From assembly GCA_037501455.1 (NCBI GenBank), contig CM074865.1:51912501-51976500 (forward strand): a DNA stretch of 64,000 bases, given 5' to 3'. The notes beneath the pieces were generated by a model that made no database searches, was not told the origin of the DNA, and saw only the letters and a program-made list of their open reading frames with translations. The position numbers were made by a program, and so were the translations under genes. Positions 5,479 to 60,966 of this stretch are shown in pieces; positions within the stretch are counted from its first letter, which is position 1, and the number at the start of each line of letters is the position of its first letter. The stretch comes from Lantana camara (taxonomy: Eukaryota > Streptophyta > Magnoliopsida > Lamiales > Verbenaceae).

Positions 5479-7266
5479 GATAAAGGAAAAGGAGTGGTGG
5501 GTACGACGAACAAACCGGTGGTCAGAGACAGAGCTTATGCTTTGGATGGTAAGGAGGAGGTTGATCCTTCGTCTGTTATGGAAGGTATTGTGCCCATTCT
5601 TAACACGCCAGTTAAGGTCTTGTATGACCCTGGTGCTACACATTCGTTTGTTGCTTCTGAATTATGTGCGCATTTACAGTTTCCGCTTGAATACTTGCCA
5701 TATAAATTTGAAGTGAGTTCTCCTTTGGGAACTTGCCTTGTTACGGATCAAGTATATAAACGCTGCCCTATATGTATTGGTACCCGTTGTTACCCGACGG
5801 ATCTTATTGAGTTACCGATGACAAGATACGACGTTATACTTGGTATGGATTGGTTGTCTAAGTACCGAGCTAAGTTGGATTGTTACAAGAAAGAGATCAT
5901 CTTGGAAGAAGATGAAAGTGGGACATCAGAAGGGAAAGTTGAGAAGTTATCAGTGATTTCTTCGATGGAAGCTAAAAAGTTGATTCAGAAAGGAGCTATT
6001 GGACTTGTTGCTTATCTTTTGAATAGACCGAAAGATCAACTTAAGATCGAAGAAGTGGAAGTGGTGAACGAATTCCTAGATGTGTTTCCTGAGCATTTGG
6101 ATTCGTTACCTCCTGACCGAGAGTTGGAATTTACAATCGAGACGATATCAGGAGCTGAGCCGTACTCGAAGACACCTTATAGAATGGCACCAGCTGAATT
6201 AGATGAACTGAGAAAGCAATTGGACGAGTTGATTGAGTCAGGATATGTTCGACCAAGCACATCGCCTTGGGGAGCGCCTGTACTTTTCGTTAAAAAGAAG
6301 GATGGATCATTGCGTTTATGCATTGACTATCGGGAGCTGAACAGGATGACAATCAAGAATAAGTATCCTCTCCCTCATATCGAAGAGCTGTTCGACATAC
6401 TACAAGGATCGAAGGTCTACTCCAAGTTAGATCTTAGACAAGGGTATTATCAATTGAAGATCAGGGAAGCAGATATTCCGAAGACTGCTTTCAACAGCCG
6501 ATACGGACATTATGAGTTTGTAGTAATGGCGTTTGGTTTGACGAATGCACCAGCTGCATTCATGGATATGATGCACCGTATATTCAAGCCGTTTCTTGAC
6601 AAGTTTGTAGTGATCTTCATCGACGATATTTTGGTATTTTCAAAGACACCGGAGGAACATGCTGAACATCTTCGAATCGTGTTACGCACTTTGCTGGATC
6701 ACAAGCTATATGCAAAGTTCAGTAAATGTGAGTTCTGGCTTGAGAGAGTTACATTTCTCGGACACATCATATCAGGATCTGGAATCGAAGTAGATCCCTC
6801 GAAGATCGAGACGATTATGGATTGGAAGTCACCGAAGAATCCTTCAGAAGTAAGGAGTTTTCTGGGATTAGCTGGTTACTACCGGAGGTTTGTCCAAGAT
6901 TTCTCGAAGATAGCTACACCTCTCACTAAGTTGACAAAGAAAGAAGGGAAGTTTGAATGGACTGAGAAGTGTGAGCAAAGTTTTCAAAGATTGAAGGAGA
7001 TGCTAACAACTGCACCCGTGTTAGCGTTACCAAAAGGAAAAGAAGGATATACTGTTTACACCGATGCTTCGAAAGAAGGACTAGGAGGAGTTTTGATGCA
7101 GAATGGAAAAGTGATTGCGTATGCATCAAGGAAACTCAAAACGCATGAAGTCAACTACCCGACACATGATTTGGAGTTAGCAGCGATAATTTTTGCTCTG
7201 GGAAAGTGGAGACATTACCTGTATGGAGTTACGTTTGTGATCTTTACTGATCATAAGAGCCTGTGA
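5479..7266 (+). pseudogene. pol: TEK1 pol, part 1: protease, reverse transcriptase, start of RNase H
   Basis: It continues the gag frame after TAG 5476. The protease shows DPGATHSF at 5626 (Asp catalytic, Pro where Ser/Thr is more usual) and the ILGMDWL flap-side motif. The reverse transcriptase spans ~6160-6700 with [16 protein letters not shown], the LDLRQGYYQ block and the FIDD catalytic motif at 6616-6627. RNase H begins near 7048 with [11 protein letters not shown]. The frame is cut by TGA at 7264-7266 inside RNase H, in a position where relatives have a basic residue codon. Apart from the two stop codons the domains look intact, consistent with a young element. Confidence 0.92.
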
Positions 7267-8397
7267 TATCTATTCACTCAGAAGGAGTTGAATATGCGAC
7301 AGAGGAGATGGATGGAATTTCTGGAGGACTACGATTGCATTATTCAATACTATCCAGGAAAGGCGAATGTTGTAGCAGATGCTCTAAGCAGGAAAGTTCA
7401 TTTGGCACAGATTTCTGCCAATCCCGAGGTTGAACAAAGAGAGAGAATGGAGGTGATAACTAAAGCTCGAATCGCGAACGTTGTGATGATATCACCTTTG
7501 AAAGAACAAGTGCTAGAGGCACAGAAGAACGACGAGTGGATTAAGAAATGTCTCGAATCTAAGGAGAAAGATGATGAGACTAAGTTCAGGGTTGATGAAC
7601 ATGGAATATTGAGGTACAAAGGTCGAGTATGCGTACCAACTGTTTTGAGGAAGGAGATTCTCGATGAAGCGCATAAGACTAAGTACACGATACATCCCGG
7701 AGGCACTAAGATGTATCAAGATGTTAAGACGCATTTCTGGTGGAATGGAATGAAGAGAGACATAGCCAACTATGTCAAGAAGTGCTTAACTTGTCAGAAA
7801 GTTAAAGCTGAGCACCAGAAACCGAGTGGGAAGTTGCAACCATTACCGATTCCGACTTGGAAGTGGGAGCAAATCACGATGGATTTTGTCACTGGATTAC
7901 CCAAAGTCAGAGGAGGACAAGATAGTATCTGGGTGATCATTGATCGATTGACCAAGTCAGCGCACTTTTTGCCGGTAAAGACGACGGATAAGGTTAGCAC
8001 GTTGGCAAAGCTGTATCAACAAGAGATTGTTAGATTACATGGAGTTCCGAACAGTATAGTCTCGGACAGAGATCCGAAATTCACGTCACATTTGTGGAAA
8101 GAAATTCAGTCTTTGATGGGAACAAAGTTGAACTTCAGTACTGCAGCGCATCCTCAGACGGATGGACAATCAGAAAGGATGATTAAATACTTGGAAGATA
8201 TGCTAAGAGCTTGCACTTTCGACTTCCAGGAAAGTTGGAAAGATTGTTTACCTCTTGTGGAGTTTGCATACAACAATAGTTATCAAGCTTCTATTAAAGC
8301 TGCTCCGTATGAAGCTCTGTATGGAAGGAAAGTAGATCCCCGTTATACTGGGATTTGGATGAAGCGAGATGTACTGAGGAAGGACCGATCAGAGTGA
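7267..8397 (+). pseudogene. pol: TEK1 pol, part 2: RNase H end and integrase core
   Basis: Same frame as part 1 after the TGA. It holds the rest of RNase H, the integrase HHCC zinc domain (His pair at ~7671-7691, CX2C at ~7783-7794) and the DDE core with Asp at 7882, Asp at 8065 and Glu at 8173. Integrase would join element cDNA to chromosomal DNA. Near 8331 one base is missing compared with the YGRK...SPLYW region of related elements. The frame therefore drifts and closes at 8395-8397, while the correct protein continues in another frame from about 8355. Confidence 0.9.
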
Positions 8398-8948: not shown

Positions 8949-8968
8949 AGAATCTGAGGACAGATTCT
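8949..8968 (+). promoter_or_regulatory. Hairpin abutting the polypurine tract (TEK1)
   Basis: GAATCTG-AGGA-CAGATTC is a perfect 7-bp stem (8 with the flanking A-T) and an AGGA loop, ending 17 bases before the LTR. The same loop with different but paired stems lies at the same place in family B, LARD1, LARD2 and family M, so it is probably a structural signal. It also overlaps chromodomain-tail codons here. Confidence 0.65.
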
Positions 8969-8970
8969 CT

Positions 8971-8985
8971 TTAAGGAGGGGTGAT
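8971..8985 (+). other. TEK1 polypurine tract
   Basis: TTAAGGAGGGGTGAT directly precedes the 3' LTR start TGTAACAG. This purine run is the expected primer for plus-strand DNA synthesis. Confidence 0.9.
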
Positions 8986-13102: not shown

Positions 13103-13107
13103 TGTGG
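13103..13107. other. Probable 3' target-site duplication of TEK1
   Basis: TGTGG follows the LTR. The intact relative at about 20835 reads CTTGTGGCGTGATCAG through this point, so TGTGG is the expected 5-bp duplicate. The 5' partner lies outside the window. Confidence 0.6.
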
Positions 13108-13200
13108 CATGATCAGAAATCCAAAGAAGCCACTAGGGAAACCGAGGAAAAGATGAAACAGTTGTGCCCAGAGCTTTACAAGACCTCGCTTCGGACCTGA
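13105..13200 (+). pseudogene. pol: Family B int0: last codons of chromodomain-like tail
   Basis: The frame from TGG 13105 reads WHDQKSKEAT then TEEKMKQL, and stops at TGA 13198-13200. It matches the ends of int1 (20838-20933) and int2 (28581-28676). A Trp typical of this motif is Arg here. The rest of this internal region lies left of TEK1, outside the window. It shows that the tandem array continues further left. Confidence 0.85.
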
Positions 13201-13221
13201 GGACAGGTCCTTTTGAAAAAG
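13193..13221 (+). promoter_or_regulatory. Hairpin and polypurine tract of family B int0
   Basis: GGACCTG-AGGA-CAGGTCC (13193-13210) is a perfect 7-bp hairpin with the same AGGA loop as TEK1 but a different stem. It is followed by TTTTGAAAAAG, the likely polypurine tract. The gag-pol stop codon lies inside the hairpin, so coding does not explain its conservation. Confidence 0.65.
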
Positions 13222-16200
13222 GGTAACATCCCGATCGTTCAAACTTTTAGGTATGCCTTTACGAGTGTCATACATGCGTAATTTAATTATTTACTTATGT
13301 AATTATGTGATATTTTAATCTTTATTTGATTAATTAAATTTATTTCAAATTATTTGCTTCAGTATGAATTTGAAATTTTTGAATGTTTATGCCCTTATGT
13401 TGTAATTTGCTGTATTTGCATCCGATTTTAATTCTGTTTCTTGTGAATTTTTGATATCTGTGAATTATGTGTGTTATGAACTTGATATTATGTTTGTTTT
13501 ATGTTTCAGAGTTCGTTTGGTTTAGTTTTGGGTCGTTTATGTTTTACTGGACCTAAAGGAGGCTAAAGAGCAATTAGAGCACCTTGGGTTCCGGGAGGCG
13601 TAACTTGAGCTCGGGAATTTGGATTCCAATTCCGAAAGATGCGTTGGACTCATAACGAGATTTAGAAGCTTTGGAACCTAACCTCATATTTTTCTAAGAT
13701 CATTTGGACCTCCGAATTTCCACCGAAACGAGCGCCTCGCACCAAAATGACACATTTCACTAGTCTTGAGCTTGTGGACCCCATCTTAACCCCAATTAAA
13801 CTCAAACCTTGACTAATATACTTCGAGTTAATCCTTCTTCTCCCACCTATCAGCTCCATTGAAACCACCCCACCAAATAAGAAGAAAATTTAGCTCCATG
13901 TGAAGAAAGAAAGAAGAAGAAAAGGCGCTTTGCCAACTTTGTGATTTTCAACGCAATACTCTTCCATACTCCCTCATTTCTTGAAGGTAATTGTATTTTT
14001 GTATTTCTAACTCTTCTATACTTCTTTTAACCCATGAAATTCGTGTTTTGATGATGGTTTGATATAACCTTGAACAGATGCATGAATAGTAAGGGTTAGC
14101 TTCCATTTCTTGAAACTTTGCCAGAGCTTGAGGTTATAGCTGAATTTATGCAAATTTGTTGATCATATGAACTTGTTAACTTCATTTCTTCTCACTTAAC
14201 ATTTGTTAGTTATGTAATAAAGGATATGCCATTAATGAACTTGAGTTAGAGCTTGGAAGAAACTTGGAATTGTTCCAATATTCATGAACTCATGCATCTT
14301 TTAAGTGATAGTTGACGTTTAGCTTGATTTTTTGGCATTTGGTGAGTTGTTTGCTACAATCTTCTGCTCCTTTTCCTTCCTTTCTTGCTGCTGCTACTGC
14401 GTTGAAGTTGGAACAGGGGAAAATCTCCGTGGCTGCTGCTCGAGAAGGAAGCTGCAAAGGGTAATGTACGTTACCCCGTTTGTGCTGAGGGAGAGTAACG
14501 CCCGTTACTCTCCTACTCTGCGTAACTTCCTCTATTAATGGGGGTGAAGCTCCTGGAACAGGATCTTAGTAACCCCCGTTACCTCCTGGATGTGTTGCTA
14601 CTGGGTGCTTGAACGGGAGTCACCACATTTAGCTTGGATAGGAGTGACCCCCATTACCCTCTTTCTTCTTGTGTGTAATGTTTGTGTTGCTTTGTTCTTT
14701 AATGTTTGCATTATATATGTGAATTATATGCTTCTATTATGTTTTAATTACATTGTTAACATGTTAATGATGTGTTATTATATATGTTTTAATCGACAAA
14801 CCTGGTTTAAGTGCTCACATGCAAAGTATGAACTTATGTGACCTAGGTGTGATTTCATTCCATCTCATTTGCATCATTGACAAATATACACATTTTTGTT
14901 ATTTGTTGGTACACTTAACCCTCCCGTTGACAACGAAGTTGATCCTTAGGCGTCCGATTTGAACTTTTATCCTCACTACACGCATATTCAAGGTGAGGTT
15001 TTGTTCTTTTCGATATAACAACCTAAATCCCTACTTGTATTGAATCCCGTATGCGAGTTATGTATATTATATGTTAGATACGTGTATGATATATACTTTG
15101 AGGGGTTGTCCCATTTGTTATAAGTCTTCGAAAACGATTTGTATACGTATGTAAGCTATTTTACCTTTAATTTGAAAACGTTTGATAAGAGTGTGTCGGT
15201 GCGAGCTTTGAACTTTGAAAGAAAATCTTTGTGGGAAATGTGATTTTCAACTATGATTTGGGCCCCGGAGAGTGGCATGTTATCTCGGGACGGCCGTGGG
15301 ATCGCCAAGCTCTCCCATCAACACTTTCCATTGAGAGTCTCGTCTAACCTTAGGAGGTTGAGGAAGGGCATTTCTCTTGAGCCGACGGAAGCAACTATTG
15401 ATGGTTTCAAGGACGTAATTAAGCCTTGTCTCATGTGAAATTTGATCAATAGTTAGGGCCTTCAACCCTTCTATCACCCGGAGAAAGGATGGTTTATGAA
15501 TTTTCATTTTCATTATGCCTTTGTTTAGCAGTTAGAGGATTAACTCGTAGTCGCCGAGTTATGTGAATTTGTATGATCTATGAAACGGGAATAGATTCCT
15601 AAATACTTAAAATTTGTGGTTTTCGCCTAGGGCCCTTGACTTCTTTTAAGTATATATATAATACCACGGTAAACGTTTTAGCTTGCAAAAACCATTCTCG
15701 CTTCATGGATCTCTTTACGAATTTTGTTAAGTGCTTTGCTCTATAAGTATTATGAGTATGTGTGTTAGCCCCCTCACTAGTCATTAGGACTAACCCTTGT
15801 GTTATTTCTCTTTTTTCCCTTTTCTTATGAGTTGCAGGTACAATTTGAGTCGAGCTACGCGGCAAGTGTCCGTCGAGTCTTACTTGTGGTTTAGCTCCAG
15901 TCGCATTTGCATTGTAATGGTTATTAACTTTGATACTTATGATCTATTTTGGATATATGTATTATGAGTACTTCGCTACACTTTGATACTTGTTATATTT
16001 TGGCCCCGGATGGGCAATATACATTTGTATATGATTGCAGCATGCTAGTATGGATTTATTTTGACATATATGTTAATCTTGGGATTTTTATTTTGTTGTT
16101 TTATCACTTCCGCTATATTATTGGTTTGATATGCACTCTAAATGAGGGTTTAGGCTGCCTAGCTAGAGCGTGAGTTTTGTTTGTCACCCTGTTCGCTATT

Positions 16201-16288
16201 GTTTGATGCGTGTACGGACATTCCATTCCGTTACACGTGTCGGACTCTAGTTCGGGGGATGTGGTGCCCTTTGCTCGGGGGTGCTACA
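13222..16288 (+). repeat. Family B LTR 1
   Basis: About 3.07 kb, homologous to 20956-24050 and 28698-30322. It ends GTGCTACA before a primer site. The 5' end reads GGTAACATCCC instead of the expected TGTAAC, so the terminal TG appears changed. It lacks roughly 60 bp near 14880 that LTR 2 and LTR 3 have. It carries a short palindrome array at 14459-14586 and the CCCTCACT hairpin at 15778-15792. Short ORFs within it are not genes. Confidence 0.9.
14459..14586. repeat. Short palindrome array in family B LTR 1
   Basis: Imperfect and perfect inverted repeats with GTAAC/GTTAC arms follow one another: 14459-14477, then 14490-14513 with perfect 11-bp arms around CC, then 14568-14586 (GTAAC-CCCC-GTTAC). 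Counterparts are at about 22196-22322 and 29738-29863. Confidence 0.75.
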
Positions 16289-16296
16289 TCCTAAAG

Positions 16297-16310
16297 TGGT
16301 ATCAGAGCTC
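16297..16310 (+). other. Primer binding site, family B int1
   Basis: TGGTATCAGAGCTC lies eight bases after LTR 1 and is complementary to initiator tRNA-Met. A conserved leader box (GGTCGTTCGGCTTAGGAA) follows at 16355-16372. Confidence 0.93.
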
Positions 16311-16496
16311 TTGGTTGTAAAAACGGAGCTCTACAGTCGTGTCAGGCCAGTCTAGGTCGTTCGGCTTAGGAAAACGTGGATATTTGCATTCACTTGCATA
16401 TTTATGTGAACTATTTGTTTAAATTCATATTAATTGTTGACATGAACATTTACAGAACCCCATGCATCTATATTTCCTTGATTTGTGATTTTTAGG

Positions 16497-17500
16497 ATGC
16501 CTTCGCGAATGAGAGACTGGGAACAAACACTAGACCATAATCAACCTCCTCCACAAGCACCACCACGACCATTGAATGCCAAGAATATTGTTCAGGCTCT
16601 TCTAAATCAACTCCATTAGAATTAAAGAAATAACCCTCAAGGGGAAGCACAAGAAGGATAGGTTACACCGGCTTTCAGGCAATTTCCGAGCAATAATCCT
16701 CCGAAGTGGTACGTGGGTGATGATATCAAATATGAAGAATGGTAATCAGAAATTTTCGGGATTTTGGAGATATGTCTGCACCTTCTCATGAGAAAGTTGT
16801 CCATAGGGCTCATTTTGTTCAAGGTCCGGCATCTAATTGGTTGAAAGCTATGAGGGCTCGGTTGGAGAGGATGGGTGGAGAGTTTAATTGGGAAAGTTTT
16901 ACAATATAGTTTCACCAGAAGTGTATTCCCCCGAGTTCCCGAGAAAGAAGACTCCAGGAATTCACGGAGTTAAAATGAGAGGATCGATCTATTGAGGATT
17001 ATATCTTGGAATTTGAGAGGCTAGCTCCGTATGCTCCCCACATCACCAATGACGACAATCAAAAAGCTCAGAATTTTGTTCACGGGTTAAGGTATGAGAT
17101 TCAATTTGCCTTAGAAGCCGCCACCGTTGACACTTGGGAAAAGGCTACGAGGAAGGCACTAAAAGTTAAAGCTCATAGGTTAAGGTTAAAGCCTCCAACA
17201 TATTCTTCGGGGCAGGGTTCAAGCTCCGGATCAAACTTGGGTAAGAGGCCGGCTTCACAGGGGGGCATCCGGTCTTCAAGCCCCAAGGTTTTAACACTTC
17301 TAACAAGAAAGTCCGACCTCCTGTATCGGCTGTACCCGCCCTACCGGCGCCGATACAATGTTTCTATTTTAAAGGCCCCAATCATACCGAGGCGACATGT
17401 CAAAAGAAATTGGAGAGATGTGATGGATGTGGAGAACCCGGTCACATGATCAATGCTTGTCTGAAGAAAAACTACCCACAACCCTTGAATGTTATACCTC
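16497..17500 (+). pseudogene. gag: Family B int1: gag remnant
   Basis: The frame starts at ATG 16497 (MPSRMRDWEQ) and is soon broken by stops at about 16617 and 16623 that int2 shares, and by others unique to this copy. A readable piece at 17006-17449 carries the end of the gag domain (YAPHITNDD, FVHGLR). The first zinc knuckle near 17360 has lost a Cys (Phe instead), while the second (CGEPGHMINAC) survives near 17420 in another frame. Not translatable as a whole. Confidence 0.85.
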
Positions 17501-17868
17501 CGAGAGCCCCTATTCAAGCTAGGGCATACGCTTTAGAAGGAGAGGAAGAGGATGTCGAGGTCGATGCCAATGTCGTTGTGGAAGGTACCATTAGCATTCA
17601 TGGTATTCCATTGCATGCATTGTTTGATCCTGGAGTAACACATTCTTTTATTGCTTCCCGACTTGTTCCTACTTTTTTCTTACCTGTTGTTTGTGTTGCT
17701 GATACTTTTGTGATAAGTTCTCTTCTCGGGGGGAGCTTGGTGATGGACCGAGTGTTCCGAGATCGCCCGGTGTGTATTGAGGGCCAAGAGTACCCGGTAG
17801 ACTTGATCAAGATGCCCATGAAGAAGTATGGGGCGATTTTTGGGATGGATTGGTTATTCCGGCAATGA
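17410..17868 (+). pseudogene. pol: Family B int1: protease remnant
   Basis: Readable 152-residue stretch from the second zinc knuckle through the aspartic protease. DPGVTHSF occupies the catalytic position and GAIFGMDWL ends the domain. It closes at a TGA after DWLFRQ that the other copy also has. It would have processed the polyprotein. Confidence 0.85.
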
Positions 17869-17999
17869 GCGAAGATGGATTGTTTTGCTAAAAAGGTTTC
17901 TTTAGGTTCTATGGTGTTTTCGGGTCAGAGGTTGAAGACCTACCTATTTATTTCCTTTATAGAAGCTAATAGGATATTCGGGACGGCGCAACGGGCTAC

Positions 18000-19272
18000 G
18001 TGGCCTATCTTTTAAATAAAACAAAAGATCAAGCCAAGCTCGAGGAGACGGAGATTATAAAGGAATTTCTCGATGTGTTCCCGGAGAGTTTGCGATATCT
18101 ACCCCCGGATCGGAACATTGAGTTTGTAATCGATCTCTATCCCGGAGCTGAACCTTATGTGAAATCTCCCTATAGGATAGCTCCGACTGAGTTGAAGGAG
18201 CTGAAGGCGCAACTCGACGAGCTCTTGGAATTTGGTTACATTTGTCCGAGCACTTCTCCGTGGGGTGCTCCTGTCCTATTTGTAAAGAAGAACGATGGGA
18301 CATTGCGGATGTGTATTGACTACCGTGAGCTGAACCGGTTAACGGTTAAGAACAAGTGCCAACTTCCTCACATTGAAGAGCTGTTTGATGTCCTTGAGGG
18401 TTCGTGTGTCTACTCCAAGCTGGATTTGAGGGAAGGGTATTATCAGTTGCGTATCCAGGAGGAAGACATACCAAAGACAAGTTTTAATACTCGTTATGGG
18501 CATTTTGAGTTTGTGGTCATGCCTTTCGGCCTTACAAATACCCCAGCTGCATTTATGGATATGATGCACCGAATATTCCGGCCTTACCTCAATAAATTCG
18601 TGGTCATCTTTGTAGATGTTATTCTGGGGTATTCGAGGTCCGTGGAAGAGTACGCGCAGCACTTGAGAACGGCATTGTCAACATTTCGAGTGCACAGACT
18701 GTTCGCCAAGTTTAGCAAGTGTGAATTCTGGATTGATCGAGTTTTCTTTTTGGGTCACTTCATTTCCGAGAAAGACGTGGAAGTGGTTCCAGCGAAGATA
18801 GAAACAGTCATGTATGGAAACAGCCGAAGAATGCCTTGGAAGTGAGAGGTTTTCTTGGGTTGGCGGGGTACTATAGGCGCTTTGTGAACGATTTCTCGAG
18901 GATTGCCTCCCCGTTGACCCGGTTAACAAAGAAATAGGCTGAGTTCGAGTGGGATGAGGCATGTGAGAAGAGTTTTCCAACCTTAAGGAAAGGTTGACTA
19001 CGACACCGATCTTAACCCTATCCAAGGGTCCTGAAGGCTACTCAGTTTACACCGACGCGTCGAAGGAAGGCCTCGGTTATGTGTTGATGCACAATGGCAA
19101 AGTTGTAGCCTACGTCTCTAGAAAGTTAAAAGATCACGAGAAGAGCTATCCCACTCATGATTTGGAGCTTACGGCAGTTGTCTTTACTTTGATGAAGTGG
19201 CGTCATTATCTTTATGGAGCCACTTTTTATGTGTTCACCGACCACCAAAGCCTCAAGTATTTCTTTACTTAA
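18000..19272 (+). pseudogene. pol: Family B int1: reverse transcriptase and RNase H remnant
   Basis: 18000-18845 covers the reverse transcriptase ([41 protein letters not shown]). The catalytic FxDD motif reads FVDV: the second Asp codon at 18618-18620 is Val. A 1-base loss near 18811 shifts the frame, and a TAG near 18936 is shared with int2. RNase H is readable at 18994-19272 ([13 protein letters not shown] to FTDHQSL). The enzyme would be inactive even if translated. Confidence 0.88.
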
Positions 19273-20936
19273 AAGGATTTGAACGTGAGACAGCGACATT
19301 GGGTCAAGCTACTTGAGGATTATGATTGTCGGATTCAATACCACCCGGGTAAGGCTAGTGTGGTGGCATATGCTTTGAGCTGGAAAGCTAGTGTTTCAAG
19401 TGTGGAAGCAAGTTCAAGCAAGCAGAGTTCAGTGGTTTTGGTTTCAGAGGCTCGATTGGCGAATATCTCTGTTTAATCAGACTTGAAGCAAAGATTGATT
19501 GAAGCTCAATCTAGTGATCCGAAAATTCAGGGACTGGTACCAAAAGCAAGGATCGAGCCGGAGACCAAGTTTGGGTTGGATGAATCAGGGTTGTTTTAGT
19601 TCAAGGCTCGGGTTTGTACTCCGAAAGAGCTTAAGAGGTTGATTCTTGAAGAGGCATATAGGTCGGCGTATACTGTACATCCTGATACTACGAAGATGTA
19701 TAAAGATTTGAGGACTTTGTATTGGTGGAATGGCATGAAGAGAGACGTCCCTAACTTTGTGAGAATATGTCAAACATGCCAAGTGGTGAAATTTGAGCAC
19801 CAAAAACAGGGAGGAACTCTCCAACCACTTCCATTTCCCGAATGAAAGTAGGAGCAAGTGACAATGGACTTCATGTCCGGCATGCCAAGGACCAAAGGAG
19901 GTTTCGATGGGATTTGGTTCATAATTGATCGGTTCTCGAAGTCGGCCTATTTTCTCATTGTCCGGATGTCCGATAAGGTGCCTAAGCTAGCCAAGTTATA
20001 CCGTAAGGAGATCATGAGATTATATGGTGCACCGCTTAGCATTGTTTCAGACAGAGATCCACGTTTCAGGGTGAGTTTTTGGCAAGAGTTGCAAAACTGT
20101 TTGGGTACTAAGCTCCAATTCAGCACCGCATCTCACCCACAAACGGATGGTTAATCAGAGTGGTGAATAAAATATCTTGAGGACATGCTTAGTGTTTGTG
20201 CCATGGATTATCAAGATACGTGGGATGAGCATTTGGACTTAGTCGAGTTCGCCTATAATAACAGCTTTCAATCATCCATCGGTATGGCTCCGTATTAGGC
20301 ACTGTACGGAAGAAAGTGTTGGTCACCTCTATTTTGGGACATTGATGAGTGGAGGTGGACTAAAGATGCTAAGCTCGACAGAGCTAAGAAACCTATGGAG
20401 ATTTAGGATACCATTGAGAAAGTGAAAGTGATCCAACAAAGGTTAAAGGCGGCTCAGAACCGATAGAAAAGTTATGCGGATAAGAGAAGATGACCTTAGA
20501 ATTTGAAGTGGAAGATAAGGTTTTCTTAAAAGCATCTCCTAGAAAAGGGTTTGCTCGGATTGGTAAAGGCGGGAAGCTTAACCCGCGCTACTTAGGCCCC
20601 TTTGAGATTCTGGAACGAGTTGGGGAAATAGCCTACAGACTTGACTTACCACCGAGCTTGACCGGGATTCAAAATGTTTTCCATGTATTTCAGGTTCGGA
20701 AATATTATCCCTATGAGTCATCTATACTTCCCATTGAAGAGGTACAACTAGAGCCGGATTTGACAATCAAGAAGCACCCGGTTGAAATCTTGGACTGGAA
20801 GATGCAAGAGGTGAGAAACAGGTTGGTGAAAGCCTTGTGGCGTGATCAGAAATCCAAAGAAGCCACTTGGGAAACCGAGGAAAAGATGAAACATTTGTAC
20901 CCAGAGCTTTACAAGACCTCGCTTCGGACCTGAGGA
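19273..20936 (+). pseudogene. pol: Family B int1: integrase and chromodomain-like tail remnant
   Basis: Readable pieces are 19279-19476 (RNase H end), 19639-19845 (HHCC zinc domain, [13 protein letters not shown]), 19858-20154 (DDE core, MDFMSGMP, VSDRDPRF) and 20490-20933 (FLKASPRKGF, HNVFHVFQVRK, EATWETEEK). Stops between them at 19270, 19474, 19846-19857, 20152, 20297, 20404 and 20465 are mostly shared with int2. A small in-frame loss removes residues just before the chromodomain-like tail compared with int2. Confidence 0.85.
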
Positions 20937-20955
20937 CAGGTCCTTTTGAAAAAAG
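20926..20955 (+). promoter_or_regulatory. Hairpin and polypurine tract, family B int1
   Basis: GGACCTG-AGGA-CAGGTCC at 20926-20943, then TTTTGAAAAAAG up to LTR 2. Same arrangement as at 13193 and 28669. Confidence 0.65.
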
Positions 20956-23900
20956 GGAACATCCCGATCGTTCGAACTTTTAGGTATGCCTTTACGGGTG
21001 TAATACATGCGTAATTTAATTATTTACTTATGCAATTATGTGATATTTTAATCTTTATTTGATTAATTGAATTTATTTGAAATTATTTGCTTCAGTATGA
21101 ATTCGAAAGTTTTGAATGTTCATGCCCTTATGCCTTGTAATTTGCTGTATTTGCATCCGATTTTAATTCTGTTTCTTGTGAATTTTTGATATGTGTGGAT
21201 TATGTGAGTTATGAACTTGATATTATGTTCGTTTTGTGTTTCAGAGTTCGTTTGGTTTAGTTTTAGCTCGTTTATGTTTTACGGGACCTAAAGGAGGCTA
21301 AAGAGCATTTAGAGCACCTTGGGTTCCGGGCGGCGTAACTTGAGCTCGGCAATTTGGATTCCAATTCCGAAAGATGCGTTGGACTCGTAACGAGATTTAG
21401 AAGCTTTGGAACCTAACCTCATATTTTTATAAGTACATTTGGACCTCTGAATTTCCACCGAAACGTGCGCCTCGCACCAAAATGACACATTTGACTAGTC
21501 TTGAGCTTGTGGACCCCATCTTAACCCCAATTAAACCCAAACCTTGACTAATATATTTCGAGTTAATCCTCCTTCTCCCACCTATCAGCTCCATTTAAAC
21601 CACCCCACCAAATAAGAAGAAAATTTAGCTCCATGTGAAGAAAGAAAGAAGAAGAAAAGGCGTTTTACCAACTTTGTGATTTTCAACGCAATACTCTTCC
21701 ATACTCCCTCATTTCTTGAAGGTAAGTGTATTTTTGTATTTCAAACTCTTCTATACTTCTTTTAACCCATGAAATTCGTGTTTTAATGATGGTATCATAT
21801 AAGCTTGAACAGATGCATGAATAGTAAAGGTTAGCGTCCATTTCTTGAAACTTTGCCATAGCTTGAGATTATAGCTGAATTTATGCAAACTTTGATGATC
21901 ATATGAACTTGTTAACTTCATTTCTTCTCACTTAACATTTTTTAGTTATGTAATAAAGGATATGCCATTAATGAACTTGAGTTAAAGCTTGGAAGAAACT
22001 TGGAATTGTTCCAATATTCATGGACTCATGCATCTTTTAAATGATGGTTAACGTGTAGCTAGATTTATTGGCATTTGGTGAGTTGTTTGCTACTATATTC
22101 TGCTCCTTTTCCTTCCTTTCTTGCTGCTGCTACTGCGTTGAAGTTGGAACAGGGGAAAATCTTCGTGGCTGCTGCTCGAGAAGGAAGCTGCAAAGGGTAA
22201 CACGCGTTACCCCGTTTGTGCTGAGGGAGAGTAACGCCCGTTACTCTCCTACTCTGCGTAACTTCCTCTATTAATGGGGGTTAAGCTCCTTGAACTGAAT
22301 CTTAGTAACCCCCGTTACCTCCTGGATGTGTTGCTACTGGGTGCTTGAACGGGAGTCACTACATTTAGATTGGAGAGGAGTGACCCCCATTACCCTCTTT
22401 CTTCTTGTGTGTAATGTTTGTGTTGCTTTGTTCTTTAATGTTTGCATTATATATGTGAATTATATGCTTCTATTATGTTTTGATTACATTGTTAACATGT
22501 TAATGATGTGTTATTATTTATGTTTTAATCTATAAACCTGATTTAAGTGCACACATGCAAAGTATGAACTTATGTGACCTAGGTGTGATTTCATTTCATT
22601 TCAGTTGCATCTTTGACATTCATACACATTTGTTGCGTGTATATTTGGTACATTTTAAGTCTAAGAGTATCCTTTGTTATTTTTTGGTACACTTAACCTT
22701 CCCGTTGACAACGAAGTTGATCCTTAGGCGTCCGATTTGAACTTTTATCCCCACTACACGCGTATTCAAGGTGAGGTTTTGTTCTTTTCGATATAACAAC
22801 CTAAATCCCTACTTGTATTGAATCCTGTATGCGAGTTATGTATATTATATGTTAGATACGTGTATGATATGTACTTTGAGGGTTTGTCCCATTTGTGATA
22901 AGTCTTCGAAAACGATTTGTATACGTATGTAAGCTATTTTACGTTTAATTTGAAAACCATTGATAAGCGTGTGTCGGTGCAAGCTTTGAACTTTGAAAGA
23001 AAATCTTTGTGGGAAATGTGATTTTCAACTATGATTTGGGCCCGGAGAGTGGTATGTTATGTCGGGATGGCCGTGGGGTCGCCAAGCTCTCCCATCAACA
23101 CTTTCCTTTGAGAGTCTCGTCTAACCTTAGGAGGTTGAGGAAGGGCGTTTCTCTTTAGCCGACAGAAGCAACCGTTGAAGGTTTCAAGGACGTAATTAAG
23201 CCTTGTCTCATGTGAAATTTGATCGATAGTTAGGGCCGTCAACCCTTCTATCACCCGGAGAAATGATGGTTTATGAATTTTCATTTTTATTATGCCTTTG
23301 TTTAAGAGTAGTTAGAGGATTAACTCGTAGTCGCCGAGTTGTGTGAATTTGTATGATCTATGAAACGGGAATAGATTCCTAAATACTTAAAATTTGTGGT
23401 TTTGGCCTATGGCTCTTGACTTCTTTTAAGTATATATATAATACCACGGTAAACGTTTTAGCTTGCAAAAACCATTCTCGCTTCATGGATCTCTTTACGA
23501 ATTTTGTTAAGTGCTTTGCTATATACGTATTATGAGTATGTGTGTTAGCCCCCTCACTAGTCATTAGGACTAACCCTTGTGTTATTTCTCTTTTTTCCCT
23601 TTTCTTATGAGTTGTAGGTACAGTTTGAGTCGAGCTAGGCGGCAAGTGTGGTTTAGCTCCAGTCGCATTTGCATTGTAATGGTTATTAACTTTGATACTT
23701 ATGATCTATTTTGGATATATGTATTATGAGTACTTCGCTACACTTTGATACTTGTTATATTTTGGCCCGGGATGGGCAATATACATTCGTATATGATTGC
23801 AGCATGCTAGTATGGATTTATTTTGACATATATGTTAATCTTGGGATTTTTATTTTGCTGTTTTATCACTTCTGCTATATTATTGGTTTGATATGCACTC

Positions 23901-24050
23901 TAAATGAGGGTTTAGGCTGCCTAGCTAGAGCGTGAGTTTTGTTTGTCACCCCGTTCGCTATTGTTTGCTGCGTGTACGGACATTTCATTCCGTTACACGT
24001 GACGGACTCTAGTTCGGGGGATGTGGTGCCCTTTGCTCGGGGGTGCTACA
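20956..24050 (+). repeat. Family B LTR 2 (shared by int1 and int2)
   Basis: About 3.09 kb. It is followed directly by a primer site and a second internal region, so this one LTR is both the 3' LTR of int1 and the 5' LTR of int2. It resembles LTR 3 more than LTR 1: both carry the extra ~60 bp near 22620 that LTR 1 lacks. It has the palindrome array at 22196-22322 and the CCCTCACT hairpin at 23558-23572. Confidence 0.9.
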
Positions 24051-24058
24051 TCCTAAAG

Positions 24059-24072
24059 TGGTATCAGAGCTC
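24059..24072 (+). other. Primer binding site, family B int2
   Basis: TGGTATCAGAGCTC lies eight bases after LTR 2. The conserved leader box follows at about 24112-24133 (TCTAGGTCGTTTAGCTTAGG). Confidence 0.93.
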
Positions 24073-24258
24073 TTAGTTGTAAAACCGGAGCTCTAAAGTC
24101 GTGTCAGGCCTGTCTAGGTCGTTTAGCTTAGGACAACGTGATTATTTGCATTCACTTGCATACTTATGTGAACTATTTGTTTAAATTCATATTAATTGTT
24201 CACATGTGCATGTACAGAACCCCATACATCGATATTTCCTTGATTTGTGATTGTCAGC

Positions 24259-24978
24259 ATGCCTCCAAGAATGAGAGACTGGGAACAAACACCAGACCTT
24301 AATCAACCTCCTCCACAAGCACCACCACGACCGTTGAATGCCAAGAATATTGTTCAGGCTCTTCTAAATCAACTCCATTAGAATTAAAGAAATAACCCTC
24401 AAGGGGAAGCACAAGAAGGACAGGTTACACCGGCTTTCAGGGAATTTCGGAGCAATAATCCTCCCAAGTGGTACGGGGGGTGATGATATCAAAGATGAAG
24501 AATGGTTATCATAAATTTTCGGGATTTGGGAGATATGCCTGCACCTTCTCATGAGAAAGTTGTCTATACAGCTCATTTTGTTCAAGTTCCGGCATCCAAT
24601 TGGTTGAAATCTATGAGGGCTCGATTGGAGTGGATAGGTGGAGAGTTTAATTGGGAAAGTTTTACAAGAGAGTTTCAACAGAAGTATATTCCCCCGAGTT
24701 CCCGAGAAAGAAGACTCCAGGAATTCACGGAGTTAAAATGTGGGGATCGATCTATTGAGGATTATATCTTGGAATTTGAGAGGCTAGCTCTTTATGCTCC
24801 CCACATCACCAATGACAACACTCAGAAAGCTCAGAATTTTGTTCACGGGTTGAGGCATGAGATTCAATATGCCTTAGAAGCCGCCACCGTTGCCACTTGG
24901 GAAAAGGCTACAAGTAAGGCACTAAAAGTTAAAGCTCATAGGTTAAGGTTAAAGCCTCCAACTTATTCTTCGGGGTAG
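24259..24978 (+). pseudogene. gag: Family B int2: gag remnant
   Basis: ATG 24259 (MPPRMRDWEQ) is followed by the same early stops as int1 near 24378-24384. An extra base in a G run near 24477 shifts the frame. The gag core is readable at 24502-24978 (FQQKYIPPSSRERR, EFERLALYAPHIT, FVHGLRHEI) and ends at a TAG absent from int1. Confidence 0.85.
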
Positions 24979-25037
24979 GGTTCAGGCTTCGGATCAAACT
25001 TGGGTAAGAGGCCTGCTTCATAGGGGGGCATCCGGTC

Positions 25038-25628
25038 TTGGAGCCCCAAGGTTTTAACACTTCTAACAAGAAAGTCCGACCTCCTGTACCGTCTGTACCC
25101 GCTCTACCGACACCGATACAATGTTTCTATTGTAAAGGCCCCAATCATACCGAGGCGACATGTCCAAAGAAATTGGGGAGATGTTATGGATGTGGAGAAC
25201 CCGGTCACATGATCAATGCTTGTCTGAAGAAAAAGTACCCACAACCCTTGAATGTTATGCCTCCGAGAGCCCCTATTCAAGCTAGGGCATATCCTTTAGA
25301 AGGAGACGAAGAGGATGCCGAGGTCGATGCCAATGCCGTTGTGGAAGGTACTATTAGCATTCATGGTATTCCATTGCATGCATTGTTTGATCAGGGAGTA
25401 ACACATTCTTTTATCGCTTCCCGGCTTGTTCCTACTTTTTCCTTACCTGTTGTTTGTGTTGCTGATACTTTTGTGATAAGTTCTCTTCTCGGGGGGAGCT
25501 TGGTGATGGATCGAGTGTTCCGAGACCGCCCGGTGAGTATTGAAGGCCAAGAATACCCGATAGACTTGATTAAGATGCCCATGAAGAAGTATGGGGCGAT
25601 TTTTGGGATGGATTGGTTATTCCGATAA
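25038..25628 (+). pseudogene. pol: Family B int2: zinc knuckles and protease remnant
   Basis: A 196-residue open stretch. Two intact CX2CX4HX4C knuckles (CFYCKGPNHTEATC and CYGCGEPGHMINAC) are followed by the protease, whose active site reads DQGVTHSF. The residue after the catalytic Asp is Gln rather than Ser/Thr. It ends with TAA beside the TGA shared with int1. Confidence 0.87.
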
Positions 25629-25762
25629 TGAGCGAAGATGGATTGTTTTGCTAAAAAGTTTTCATTGGGTTCTACGGTGTTTTCGGGTCAGAGGTTGAAG
25701 ACCTACCTGTTTATTTCCTTTATGGAAGCTAATAGGATGTTCAGGACGGCGCGACGGGCGAC

Positions 25763-27036
25763 GTGGCCTATCTTTTAAATAAAACAAAAGATCAAGCCAA
25801 GCTCGAGGAGACGGAGATTATAAAGGAATTTCTCGATGTGTTCCCGGAGAGTTTACGATATCTATCCCCGGATCGGAACATTGAGTTCGTAATCGATCTC
25901 TGTCCCGGAGCGGAACCTTATGCGAAATCTCCCTATAGGATGGCTCCGACTGAGTTGAAGGAGCTGAAGGCGCAACTGGATGAGCTCTTGGAATGTGGTT
26001 ACATTCGTCCGAGCACTTCTCCGTGGGGTGCCTCTGTCCTATTTGTAAAGAAGAAGGATGGGACATTGCGGATGTGTATTGACTACCGTGAGCTGAACCG
26101 GTTAACGTTTAAGAACAAGTGCCAACTTCCTCACATTGAAGAGCTGTTTGATGTCCTTTAGGGTTCGTGTGTCTACTCCAAGCTGGATTTGAGGCAAGGG
26201 TATTATCAGTTGCGTATCCAGGAGGAAGACATACCAAAGACAAGTTTTAATACTCGTTATGGGCATTTTGAGTTTGTGGTCATGCCTTTCGGCCTTACAA
26301 ATACCCCAGCTGCATTTATGGATATGATGCACCGAATATTCCTGCCTTACCTCAATAAATTCGTGGTCATCTTTATAGATGTTATTCTGGGGTATTCGAG
26401 GTCCGTGGATGAGTACGCGCAGCACTTGAGAACGGTATTATCAATATTTCGAGTGCACAGACTGTTCGCCAAGTTTAGTAAGTGTGAATTCTGGATTGAT
26501 CGAGTTTTCTTTTTGGGTCACTTCATTTCCGGGAAAGGCGTGGAAGTGGTTCCAGCGAAGATAGAAACAGTCATGCTATGGAAGCAGCCGAAGAATGCCT
26601 TGCAAGTGAGAGGTTTTCTTGGGTTGGCGGGGTACTATAGGCGCTTTGTGAACGATTTCTCGAGGACTGCCTCCCCGTTGACCCGGTTAACAAAGAAATA
26701 GGCTAAGTTCGAGTGGGACGAGGCATGTGAGAAGAGTTTTCAAACCTTAAGGAAAGGTTGACTACGACACCGATCTTAACCCTATCTGAGGGTCCTGAAG
26801 GCTACTCAGTTTACACCGACGCGTCGAAGGAAGGCCTCGGTTATGTGTTGATGCACAATGGCAAAGTTTTAGCCTACGTCTCTAGAAAGTTAAAAGATTA
26901 CGAGAAGAGCTATCCCACTCATGATTTGGAGGTTACGGCAGTTGTCTTTACTTTGATGAAGTGGCGTCATTATCTTTATGGAGCCACTTTTTATGTGTTC
27001 ACCGACCACCAAAGCCTCAAGTATTTATTTACTTAA
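25763..27036 (+). pseudogene. pol: Family B int2: reverse transcriptase and RNase H remnant
   Basis: 25763-26161 and 26189-26701 cover the reverse transcriptase, separated by a TAG that int1 lacks (GAG in int1). The catalytic motif reads FIDV, with the same Asp-to-Val change as int1 (codon 26381-26383). The TAG after LTRLTKK is shared with int1. RNase H is readable at 26758-27036. Identical inactivating changes in both copies show common descent from a dead copy. Confidence 0.88.
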
Positions 27037-28676
27037 AAGGATTTGAACGTGAGACAGAGACATTGGGTCAAGCTACTTGAGGATTATGATTGTCGGATTC
27101 AATACCACCCCGGTAAGGCTAGTGTGGTGGCAGATCCTTTGAGCTGGAAAGCTAGTGTTTCAAGTGTGGAAGCAATTTCAAGCAAGCAGAGTTTAGTGGT
27201 TCTGGTTTCAGAGGCTCGATAGGCGAATATCTCTGTTTAATCAGACTTGAAGCAAAGAATGATTGAAGCTCAATCTAGTGATCCGGAAATTCAGGGATTG
27301 GTACCAAAAGCAAGAATCGAGCCGGAGACCACGTTTGGGTTCAATGAATCAGGGTTCTTTTAGTTCAAGAGGTTGATTCTTGAAGAGGCATATAGGTCGG
27401 CGTATACTGTACATCCTGATACTACAAAGATGTATAAAGATTTGAGGACTTTGTATTGGTGGAATGGCATGAAGAGAGACGTCGATAACTTTGTGAGAAG
27501 ATGTCAAACATGCCAAGTAGTGAAATTTGAACACCAAAAACAGGGAGGAACTCTCCAACCACTTCCATTTCCCGAATGGAAGTAGGAGCAAGTGACAATG
27601 GACTTCAAGTCCGGCATGCCAAGGACCAAAGGAGGTTTCGATGGGATTTGGTTCATAATTGATCGGTTCTCGAAGTCGGCCCATTTTCTCAATGTCCGGA
27701 TGTCCGACAAAGTGCCTAAGCTAGCCAAGTTATACCGTAAGGAGATCGTGAGATTACATGGTGCACCGCTTAGCCTTGTTTGAGACAGAGATCCACGTTT
27801 CACGGTGAGTTTTTGGCAAGAGTTGCAGAACTGTTTGGGTACTAAGCTCCAATTCAGCACCGCATCTCACCCACAAACGGATGGTTAATCAGAGTGGTGA
27901 ATAAAATATCTTGAGGACATGCTTCGTGCTTGTGCCTTGGATTATCAAGATACGTGGGATGAGCATTTGGACTTAGTCGAGTTCGCCTATAATAACAGCT
28001 TTCAATCATCCATCGGTTTGGCTCCGTATTAGGCACTGTACGGAAGGAAGTGTTGGTCACCTCTATTTTGGGACATTGATGAGTGGAGGTAGACTAAAGA
28101 TGCTAAGCTCGACAGAGCTAAGAAACCTATGGAGATTTAGGATAACATTGAGAAAGTGAAAGTGATCCAACAAAGGTTAAAGGCGGCTCAGGACTGATAG
28201 AAAAGTTATGCGGATAAGAGAAGATGACCTTAGAATTTGAAGTGGAAGATAAGGTTTTCTTAAAAGCATCTCCTAGAAAAGGGTGTGCTCGGATTGGTAA
28301 AGGCGGGAAGCTTAACCCGCGCTACTTAGGCCCCTTTGAGATTCTGGAACGAGTTGGGGAAATAGCCTACAGACTTGACTTACCACCGAGCTTGATCAGG
28401 ATTCAAAATGTTTTCCATGTATTTCAGGTTCGGAAATATTATCCCGATGAGTCTTCTATACTTCCCATTGAAGAGGTACAACTAGAGCCGGATTTGACAA
28501 TCAAGAAGCACCCGGTTGAAATCTTGGACTGGAAGACACAAGAGGTGAGAAACAGGCAAATTCCTTTGGTGAATGTCTTATGGCATAATCAGAAATCCAA
28601 AGAAGCCACTATGGAAACCGAGGAAAAGATGAAACAGTTGTGCCCAGAGCTTTACAAGACCTCGCTTCGGACCTGA
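27037..28676 (+). pseudogene. pol: Family B int2: integrase and chromodomain-like tail remnant
   Basis: Readable pieces: 27373-27585 (HHCC domain), 27592-27783 (DDE core start), 28224-28676 (integrase C-terminus and chromodomain-like tail, ending KTSLRT). It carries the same series of stops as int1 (e.g. near 27034, 27238, 27584, 27885, 28030, 28138, 28198), plus its own stop at 27781-27783 and a ~20-bp loss near 27369. It keeps the QIPLV residues that int1 has lost. Confidence 0.85.
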
Positions 28677-28697
28677 GGACAGGTCCTTTTGAAAAAG
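28669..28697 (+). promoter_or_regulatory. Hairpin and polypurine tract, family B int2
   Basis: GGACCTG-AGGA-CAGGTCC at 28669-28686 followed by TTTTGAAAAAG. Third copy of the arrangement in the array. Confidence 0.65.
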
Positions 28698-30322
28698 GGT
28701 AACATCCCGATCGTTCGAACTTTTAGGTATGCCATTACGGGTGTAATACATGCGTAATTTAATTATTTACTTATGCAATTATGTGATATTTTAATATTTA
28801 TTTGATTAATTGAATTTATTTGAAATTATTTGCTTCAGTATGAATTCGAAAGTTTTGAATGTTTATGCCCTTATGCCTTGTAATTTGCTGTATTTGCATC
28901 CGATTTTAATTCTGTTTCTTGTGAATTTTTGATATGTGTGGATTATATGAGTTATGAACTTTATATTATGTTCGTTCTGTGTTTCAGAGTTCGTTTGGTT
29001 TAGTTTTAGCTCGTTTATGTTTTACGGGACCTAAAGGAGGCTAAAGAGCATTTAGAGCACCTTGGGTTCCGGGCGGCGTAACTTGAGCTCGGCAATTTGG
29101 ATTCACATTCCGAAAGATGCGTTGGACTCGTAACGAGATTTAGAAGCTTTGGAACCTAACCTCATATTTTTCTAAGTTCATTTGCACTTCCGAATTTCCA
29201 CTGAAACGAGCTCCTCGCACCAAAATGACACATTTGACTAATCTTGAGCTTGTGGACCCCATCTTAACCCCAATTAAACCCAAACCTTGACTAATATACT
29301 TCTTTTAACCCATGAAATTCGTGTTTTGATGATGGTATGATATAAGCTTGAACAGATGCATGAATAGTAAAGGTTAGCTTCCATTTCTTGAAACTTTGCC
29401 ATAGCTTGAGGTTATAGCTGAATTTATGCAAACTTTGATGATCATATGAACTTGTTAACTTCATTTCTTCTCACTTAACATTTGTTAGTTATGTAATAAA
29501 GGATGTGCCATTAATGAACTTGAGTTAAAGCTTGGAAGAAACTTGGAATTGTTCCAATATTCATGGACTCATGCATCTTTTAAGTGATGGTTAACGTGTA
29601 GCTAGAGTTATTGGCATTTGGTGAGTTGTTTGGTACTATCTTCTGCTCCTTTTCCTTCCTTTCTTGCTGCTGCTACTGCGTTGAAGTTGGAACAGGGGAA
29701 AATCTTCGTGGCTGCTGCTCGAGAAGGAAGCTGCAAAGGGTAACGGGCGTTACCCCGTTTGTGCTGAGGGAGAGTAACGCCCGTTACTCTCCTACTCTGC
29801 GTAACTTCCACTATTAATGGGGGTTAAGCTCCTTGAACTGAATCTTAGTAACCCCTGTTACCTCCTGGATGTGTTGCTACTGGGTACTTGAACGGGAGTC
29901 ACTACATTTAGATTGGATAGGAGTGACCCCCATTACCCTCTTTCTTCTTGTGTGTAATGTTTGTGTTGCTTTGTTCTTTAATGTTTGCATTATATATGTA
30001 AATTATATGCTTCTATTATGTTTTTATTACATTGTTAACATGTTAATGATGTGTTATTATTTATGTTTTAATCTATAAACCTGATTTAAGTGCACACATG
30101 CAAAGTATGAACTTATGTGACCTAGGTGTGATTTCATTTCATTTCATTTGCATCTTTGACATTCATACACATTTTTTGCATGTATATTTGGTACATTTTA
30201 AGTCTAAGAGTATCCTTTGTTATTTTTTGGTACACTTAACCTTCCCGTTGACAACGAAGTTGATCCTTAGGCGTCCGATTTGAACTTATATCCCTACTAC
30301 ACGCGTATTCAAGGTGAGGTTT
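28698..30322 (+). repeat. Family B LTR 3, truncated
   Basis: Homologous to the first part of LTR 2. It stops at GGTGAGGTTT (30322), where unrelated sequence begins; the last ~1.3 kb of the LTR is missing. About 250 bp is also missing at 29295-29302 compared with LTR 1 and LTR 2. The join falls on TATACTTC, a word present at both edges of the missing piece in LTR 1. It keeps the palindrome array (29738-29863), with GGGTAACGGGCGTTACCCC as its first unit. Confidence 0.9.
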
Positions 30323-47149: not shown

Positions 47150-47184
47150 ACCTCTCCCCCTTAAAAGAATCCGTCCTCAAATTC
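47150..47184 (-). promoter_or_regulatory. Family M polypurine tract and adjoining hairpin
   Basis: The minus strand reads TTTTAAGGGGGAGAGGT up to the LTR. Before it is GAATTTG-AGGA-CGGATTC (47167-47184), whose stem pairs fully if two G-U pairs are allowed. Same position and loop as in the other gypsy families. Confidence 0.7.
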
Positions 47185-49675: not shown

Positions 49676-49881
49676 ACGGGAACGGCCCTTCCAGTTCGCT
49701 TTGCAATTGGGGAACGGCCGTTCCCATTGATTTGAATAACATGCAGGCGGCGAAGAGGGGAACGACCGTTCCCACTTTGTCTCACAGATGGGAACGGCCG
49801 TTCCCATCTTCGGGGAGCATTTCTGGACTAGGGAACGGCCCTTCCGATTTTACACTAAAACCTGGAACGACCGTTCCCAGG
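49676..49881. repeat. Six-unit palindrome array in LARD1 left LTR
   Basis: Six copies of GGGAACGGCCGTTCCC or a variant at about 49678, 49710, 49758, 49790, 49831 and 49863, spaced 32-48 bp. The fourth extends to a perfect 24-bp palindrome (49786-49809). The right LTR has the same series at 55095-55301 with scattered substitutions. Confidence 0.85.
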
Positions 49882-50340
49882 CTCCTGGAAGTGTAGAAAT
49901 ATTCTACATAAAATTACATTTTTAGCCCCTCGATCCGATGGTTTATTTGACCCCAAATTACTATTATATGATTGATTACATGCCAAAACAAGATGTTATT
50001 ATGCTACATTGTGTATTGATCGATGTCTCGTGTATGATCACGGCGTACGTCTTATATGAAGTAATTGTCTTGAATTATGGTCTCATGCACGTACATTGTC
50101 CCGTTTCTTGTCCAGTTATTCTCCAGGGCGGAGATTATCAAGCATGAACACGTTCACACATTCACGAGTCGTGTGTCGCCTGTGAGGTGATGTTTAATTT
50201 CTAGTTATATTATATAGAACCCGTATAACCTTTACGTGATTTTTGGCCAAAGGTATTTATAGTTATAATTTCATGAAATCACTTATCATTTCAAGTATGT
50301 TATTGTTCACGAATCAAGCATGTCATGTTCATGAAAGCAA

Positions 50341-54094: not shown

Positions 54095-54129
54095 GAATCC
54101 GAGGACGGATTCTCTTAAGGGGGAGAGAG
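54095..54129 (+). promoter_or_regulatory. LARD1 terminal hairpin and polypurine tract
   Basis: GAATCCG-AGGA-CGGATTC (54095-54112), then TTAAGGGGGAGAGAG directly before the right LTR. The hairpin is kept although there is no coding sequence here. Confidence 0.75.
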
Positions 54130-60931: not shown

Positions 60932-60966
60932 GAATCCGAGGACGGATTCTTTTAAGGGGGAGAGGT
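60932..60966 (+). promoter_or_regulatory. LARD2 terminal hairpin and polypurine tract
   Basis: GAATCCG-AGGA-CGGATTC (60932-60949), then TTTTAAGGGGGAGAGGT up to the LTR start at 60967. Confidence 0.75.

Follow-up and report, generated by a model that had tools for sequence, protein, structure and literature searches.

A covarying hairpin directly upstream of the polypurine tract in Ty3/gypsy and non-coding LTR retrotransposons of Lantana camara

It has long been asked how reverse transcriptase (RT) selects the polypurine tract (PPT) among purine runs and cuts at one base. A review of 2012 described the structural basis of PPT recognition as still elusive (PMC3362945), and a paper of 2013 urged that PPT hairpins be searched for systematically (PMC3601003). 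The locus reported here, a 64-kb stretch of the Lantana camara genome that was analysed over its whole length and is called the window below, raises the matter in a concrete form, with a small hairpin standing directly upstream of the PPT in one LTR retrotransposon after another. What keeps the hairpin at this place, and is it the letters or the shape that is kept?

Hairpin sites and their elements in the window

The window consists of nested LTR retrotransposons, in a host genome of 1.27 Gb in 378 contigs. It holds seven sites at which a 7-bp stem with an AGGA loop lies directly upstream of a PPT, representing five element types, the three family B sites being copies of one family. All seven hairpins that the original prediction had placed in TEK1, family B (three times), LARD1, LARD2 and family M are present at their loci. 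The TEK1 hairpin occupies 8950..8967 of the plus strand; the predicted start at 8949 holds only if an extra A-T pair (8949/8968) is counted, which makes 8 bp, and the 7-bp arm itself begins at 8950. Its PPT (8973..8981) and LTR start (8986, TGTAAC), both on the plus strand, were read from the sequence, the 5' LTR start lying outside the window. The family B hairpins are also on the plus strand, at 13193..13210 (copy 1, B1), 20926..20943 (copy 2, B2) and 28669..28686 (copy 3, B3), as are those of LARD1 (54095..54112, with the PPT at 54117..54129) and LARD2 (60932..60949, with the PPT at 60954..60965 and the LTR start at 60967). The 3' LTR of LARD1 starts at 54131 and is matched by a 5' LTR at 48744, making this the only one of the elements whose LTR start is proven by a second LTR. 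The family M hairpin lies on the minus strand at 47167..47184, with the LTR start at 47149.

Six of the seven hairpins are fully Watson-Crick, the exception being family M with two G.U pairs. Across the 64 kb there are six fully Watson-Crick 7-bp stems with an AGGA loop, every one of them at a PPT; three AGGA stems lie away from a PPT, and all three require G.U pairs. As had been claimed, the stem letters vary between families and the pairing is kept, through compensatory changes across diverged elements. The claimed distance of 11-18 bases to the LTR was likewise recovered, the gaps being 18 nt in TEK1 and LARD1, 17 nt in LARD2 and M, and 11, 12 and 11 nt in B1, B2 and B3, where the LTR begins with GG and its start is therefore uncertain. 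Pairing that is preserved once through G-U pairs, a further element of the prediction, is indeed found in M, but these two pairs are probably the result of C-to-T decay, because its relative LARD2 has C-G pairs there, and they are therefore not good evidence for an RNA. The window's single copia element, which provides one control, has no such hairpin 17-19 nt upstream of its 3' LTR; a 7-bp stem with a different loop is found about 45 nt upstream. As a measure of background, TGTAA/TGTGA sites of the window other than these junctions have a stem at that distance in 8/332 cases.

TEK1 is a Ty3/gypsy LTR retrotransposon, in which an RT/RNase H open reading frame (5479-7266, RT motifs recognised by eye) precedes an integrase (7267-8397) with Integrase_H2C2, rve and SH3_Tf2-1 domains. 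LARD1 is a complete non-coding insertion with CGCTA flanking both sides; its 5' LTR is followed by TGGTATCAGAGC, which we take to be a tRNA-iMet primer-binding site. With its two LTRs, target-site duplication, primer-binding site and PPT, and with no gag or pol match in its interior, it is a LARD. Only the 3' end of LARD2 is visible, a second LTR was not found in the window, which may cut the element, and the 3 kb upstream gave no gag or pol match. The prediction that both LARDs are non-coding at the hairpin is borne out by the lack of gag or pol matches in 51373-54094 and 57900-60931. Within 48744-56790, LARD1 appears to be inserted in the minus-strand M element, between its integrase (47.1-48.7 kb) and its reverse transcriptase (56.8-57.7 kb). 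M (47044-47191) and LARD2 (60925-61080) share a similarity that begins about 7 bases before the hairpin and extends into the LTR, and no further shared sequence was found upstream of it. Family B (13103-29302) forms a tandem array with a spacing of about 7.7 kb and a similarity of about 94.5% between copies; the PPT is shortened and the LTRs start with GG, not TG.

Recurrence in diverged elements and in the host genome

Diverged elements were sought with a degenerate integrase pattern, blind to the stem, in bacterial genome contigs. Eight of the 17 stretches obtained encode a gypsy integrase of the same type (L001, L004, L006, L009, L011, L012, L013 and L017); L011 was typed by its identity to L001 (99.3% over 5.76 kb), and the two count as one element. 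The PPT/LTR junction is reached in seven of the eight, L013 ending before it, which leaves six distinct elements. All six carry the stem at the same place, 7 bp long and fully paired (GATTTCG, GATTCCG, GATTTTG, AATTTTG, TATTTGG and GATTCGG, with the loops GGGA, GGA, GGGA, AGGA, AGGA and TGGA in the same order). At random positions in the same contigs such a stem occurs 17-19 nt upstream in 1.2% of cases (694/57,230), and TGTAA/TGTGA sites of the six external contigs other than these junctions have one at that distance in 5/131. Among the nine elements with pol, integrase identity is 45-66%, and the elements therefore belong to separate families. The gypsy contigs sit in assemblies of Geminicoccus, Labilibacter, Mycobacterium, Solirubrobacter, Streptomyces, Robertmurraya and Acidobacteriota, an apparent contamination, presumably by plant DNA. 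Pattern scans of viral contigs (4 and 174 matching stretches) yielded no relatives and no usable loci, and a separate protein scan of genome contigs (81 stretches) yielded no relatives.

Within the Lantana camara genome, a pattern for the PPT and LTR start that contains no stem gave 8,965 matches, against one for the reversed control. The 100 matches listed fall within the first 30 Mb of contig C1, and 70 of these junctions were sampled (L030-L099), made up of the first 65 in list order and five picked from the remainder, in part because their PPT takes a rarer form. At 61 of the 70 the stem pairs in full and at eight it is damaged, through the deletion of one base or the loss of one or two pairs, so that the hairpin is recognisable in 69 and lacking in one (L086). 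Among the first 30 sampled junctions, the 1.5 kb upstream lacks a pol match in 25. The 16 members of the LARD1 LTR cluster carry three stems, GAATCCG/CGGATTC, GGACCTGG/CCAGGTCC and GGATCTGG/CCAGATCC, with full pairing in 13 and one broken pair each in L039, L046 and L057; a recombinational swap of 3' ends between families could gather different stems in this way, without explaining why they pair. A protein search of the same genome with the L001 integrase as query returned 39,728 candidates, of which 112 places were scored and 20 loci obtained. The junction is reached in 19 of them (L119 runs into another sequence), and all 19, judged by eye, have the hairpin, fully paired in 17 and with one mismatch in L110 and L116; they add two further stem types, with AGGA, AGGG and AGGC loops. 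Among the junctions examined outside the window, then, absence of the stem is the exception, the hairpin being seen in 94/95.

The gap between stem and LTR measures 17-19 nt in all of 11 elements but B1, where it is 11 nt. In 50 sampled copies from the host genome, searched over 14-22 nt, it was always 17-19 nt (18 nt in 32 copies, 17 nt in 17 and 19 nt in one). Both arms of the hairpin are upstream of the PPT, and a short pyrimidine-rich linker followed by the PPT separates the stem from the LTR. Such fixed spacing might merely reflect a hairpin that abuts a PPT of fixed size. The loop is purine-rich, NGGA or GGA in most cases and AGGG or AGGC in some, and single host-genome copies depart from the usual form, AGGG, AGGC, AGAA and ATGA all occurring. 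In some copies a 5-nt GGGAC replaces the 4-nt loop and allows GGA to be taken as the loop, closed by an eighth pair, G-C.

Compensatory change and the pol reading frame

Covariation was measured in two alignments. The first, A2, comprises 11 elements (B2, B3 and L011 left out) and has standard pairs in 98.7% of cells, with a covariation of 0.681 as against 0.247 in shuffled alignments and at most 0.208 in slid ones. Its sole unpaired cell is an alignment gap that MAFFT placed in the stem of L004; with the gap moved to the loop, L004 is fully paired and one listed U-G cell vanishes. The second, A3, comprises 12 sequences with a 4-nt loop, among them the close relatives L100, L101 and L105, and leaves out L004 (3-nt loop), LARD2 and M. 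All 84 of its pair cells are standard and Watson-Crick, six of the seven pairs have changed on both sides, and all 12 sequences have a loop-closing G-C pair and GG as the two middle loop bases. Covariation in A3 is 0.879, against 0.323 shuffled and at most 0.180 when slid, but two further measures did not clearly beat shuffling, the six pairs changed on both sides being equalled by 47/500 shuffles and the number of further pair types by 493/500.

As kinship among the sequences can mislead shuffles, a tree-based null was also run, in which the two arms evolve independently, at fitted rates, along the integrase tree from a perfect ancestral hairpin. This null, a Jukes-Cantor model on a nine-tip tree, is rough but generous. 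All 63 of 63 paired cells were reached in 0/2,000 and 0/200,000 runs at the fitted rates, in 0/200,000 with the rates halved and in 3/200,000 with the rates quartered. The covariation that the original prediction called for thus rises above shuffles, slides and the tree null, in a small alignment of 11-12 sequences. The hairpin is a conserved structured element, with compensatory changes beyond what any of the three produces, and since the letters differ between families mostly in matched pairs, the shape itself appears to matter.

Several simpler explanations were rejected: chance, in view of the 1.2% rate at random positions; spread through the three B copies alone, in view of the different stems of other families; and common descent from one ancestral hairpin, by the tree-based simulations.

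Coding does not account for the hairpin either, as had been argued beforehand, given that the pol stop falls before, inside or after the stem and that copies without pol keep it. Among 16 elements in which the position of the stop relative to the stem was examined, it starts ahead of the stem by 1 nt in L001, L006, L017 and L040 and by 3 nt in L009; in L113, L115 and L118 it lies 5 nt inside the stem, in L004, L012, L101, L105 and L106 21-23 nt past the stem start, and in L100 119 nt past it. In L044 and L055 the longest frame stops short of the stem by 190 and 88 nt respectively, which looks like decay. The stop predicted within the family B hairpin is also there, the pol frame of B3 (28218-28676) ending in a TGA at 28674-28676. 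One might suppose that a conserved peptide at the C-terminus of integrase happens to be palindromic, and an open frame does cross the site in TEK1, L004, L012, L101, L105 and L106. In TEK1, however, the integrase frame upstream stops at 8834 and a different frame crosses the hairpin into the LTR; in other families pol finishes within the stem, at its first base or ahead of it, and the stem is covered by another frame and peptide from one family to the next (ESEDRF in TEK1, DSGTES in L004, YLEDQI in L012, KFRGRN in L105). Together with the hairpins of copies without pol, the varied stop positions contradict a coding by-product, whose probability we regard as negligible. It is also very improbable that the stem is a translation signal affecting termination or read-through of pol, which the stops 1 nt before and 5 nt inside the stem would suit, but the stops 21-23 nt and 119 nt past its start, and the stems of copies without pol, would not. 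In the L001 (L001:5550), L006, L017 and L040 junctions the last two letters of the pol TGA are the first two of the stem, as if pol ends where the cis element begins.

Known structures, possible roles and the strand concerned

The original prediction knew of no description of such a hairpin, and none was found in a literature search that covered open-licence main texts without supplements, so that an earlier mention is possible; a search by hairpin sequence strings produced no fitting title among the papers listed. Retroviral Psi lies in the 5' leader, unlike the present hairpin at the 3' end beside the PPT. The two are alike in being a short stem that exposes purines, mainly G, in Psi as a GGAG tetraloop (PMC7599994). 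The inverted repeat that surrounds the PPT of Sireviruses comes closest, again a conserved inverted repeat placed precisely at the plus-strand primer of plant LTR elements, which its authors proposed to help RNase H form that primer (PMC2829016). The arms of that repeat, however, flank the PPT, the left one lying upstream of it and the right one within the 3' LTR, whereas the present hairpin, in Ty3/gypsy elements, has both arms upstream, normally 17-19 nt from the LTR, the PPT outside and a loop of 3-4 nt. With both arms upstream of the PPT it is not an inverted repeat of the Sirevirus type. The genomic RNAs of HIV-1, SIV and Ty3 also have structure at or near the PPT, but there the PPT's own bases are partly paired, and excerpts of the two reports describe no covarying hairpin directly upstream of it (PMC3616985, PMC11381356). 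Work on plant chromovirus PPTs concerns the same kind of element, with a PPT directly before the 3' LTR, and the strings "hairpin" and "palindrom" are absent from both main texts (PMC3605345, PMC6317226).

From the sequence comparisons we give a probability of roughly 55% to the reading that the hairpin is a cis-acting stem-loop forming part of the plus-strand-primer signal of these plant Ty3/gypsy elements; a role tied to the PPT is preferred because of the narrow spacing. During reverse transcription, synthesis of the minus strand proceeds from U3 across the PPT and on into the region upstream (also reviewed in PMC5371799). If the hairpin folds on genomic RNA, RT copying the minus strand would meet the stem just after passing the PPT and might pause there, alone or aided by Gag nucleocapsid bound to the exposed loop purines. 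The paused enzyme would keep its trailing RNase H site near the PPT/U3 boundary, and the primer-making cut, and hence the LTR end, would fall at the right base. Since the stem would melt in an RNA/DNA hybrid, protection of the finished primer seems less likely than action during minus-strand copying. The active sites of HIV-1 RT are 17-18 bp apart, and a similar spacing in the enzymes of these elements would fit the 17-19-nt gap directly. Those of Ty3 RT are about 13 bp apart (PMC5371799), so that a 17-19-nt ruler would need the polymerase to stop 4-6 nt before the stem, or a longer enzyme. The 11-12-nt gap of family B also counts against the reading, and for SIV and HIV-1 RNA structure has been judged unlikely to modulate PPT primer function as such (PMC3616985). 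We regard as rather doubtful the more specific proposal that plant chromoviruses and the non-coding elements mobilised by them share a structural ruler, a hairpin free in sequence and fixed in shape, its distance to the LTR setting the RNase H primer cut and the left LTR end. If true, it would mean a plus-strand-primer signal that is read by shape and distance besides the purine tract. In a genome with 8,965 PPT/LTR matches, nearly every sampled copy has a second, shape-coded signal by its PPT, which points to a cis-acting requirement kept by non-coding elements and may serve to mark, independently of sequence, where these elements and their LARDs have their 3' end.

Of the original proposal, an RNA or hybrid structure helping to select or protect the plus-strand primer, the comparisons support a structure that is real, compensatory, tied to the PPT and present in non-coding copies; the proposed role at the primer is helped neither by the test for G.U pairs nor by folding energies. 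If the RNA strand matters, T.G variants of the commonest stem are expected to outnumber C.A variants. Counts at one pair in the host genome were 6,143 perfect, 159 T.G, 229 C.A and 12 T-A; there is no excess of T.G over C.A, and the RNA reading gains no support from this comparison, which says little since most single changes are probably decay after insertion. The double changes (T-A) exceed the 5.9 predicted by independence, though weakly. G.U pairs are nearly absent, every independent stem except that of M being Watson-Crick only, which is odd for an RNA. Relative to shuffles the folding energies of 56-nt pieces are ordinary (z-scores of -1.03 to +0.92). L006 and L017 reach their energy minimum in another fold, in which the PPT is paired with bases that directly follow the loop or stem.

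The main rival reading is that nucleocapsid binds the loop purines, which would suit the hairpin, either for packaging or to assist priming. In a signal for packaging or dimerisation, the loop would show its purines to the Gag zinc knuckle that selects genomic RNA, and its proximity to the PPT would be incidental. A near-constant purine loop on a stem of free sequence is the usual mark of loop recognition, and the hairpin is retained in LARD-like copies, which must be packaged by the Gag of other elements. Yet retroviral packaging signals lie near the 5' end, the narrow spacing to the LTR better fits action at the PPT, and AGGG, AGGC, AGAA and ATGA loops are found; we consider a packaging role unlikely. 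In HIV-1, NC can bind the GGAG loop of a Psi hairpin tightly, but replacement of that loop had no significant effect on packaging (PMC7599994). An element acting at the level of DNA, either a hairpin in minus-strand single-stranded DNA by the primer or a double-stranded inverted repeat for a dimeric protein, would agree with the Watson-Crick stems and with the larger number of C.A copies, which are G.T on the minus strand. The centre, however, is asymmetric and largely conserved, unlike that of a dyad site, the loop varies between 3 and 4 nt, the several stems within one LTR cluster would not readily be allowed by a dimer that reads sequence, and the 229:159 excess may be mutational, the sampled hairpins having 11 G-to-A and no C-to-T changes. 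A DNA-level element thus seems improbable to us, and a stem-loop within the plus-strand-primer signal remains the preferred reading.

Counted on the element's plus strand, the substitutions in the 70 sampled hairpins comprise those 11 G-to-A, 3 G-to-T and 0 C-to-T. This strand asymmetry is unexpected from methylation decay alone, and the 229 C.A against 159 T.G copies lean the same way, to a lesser degree.
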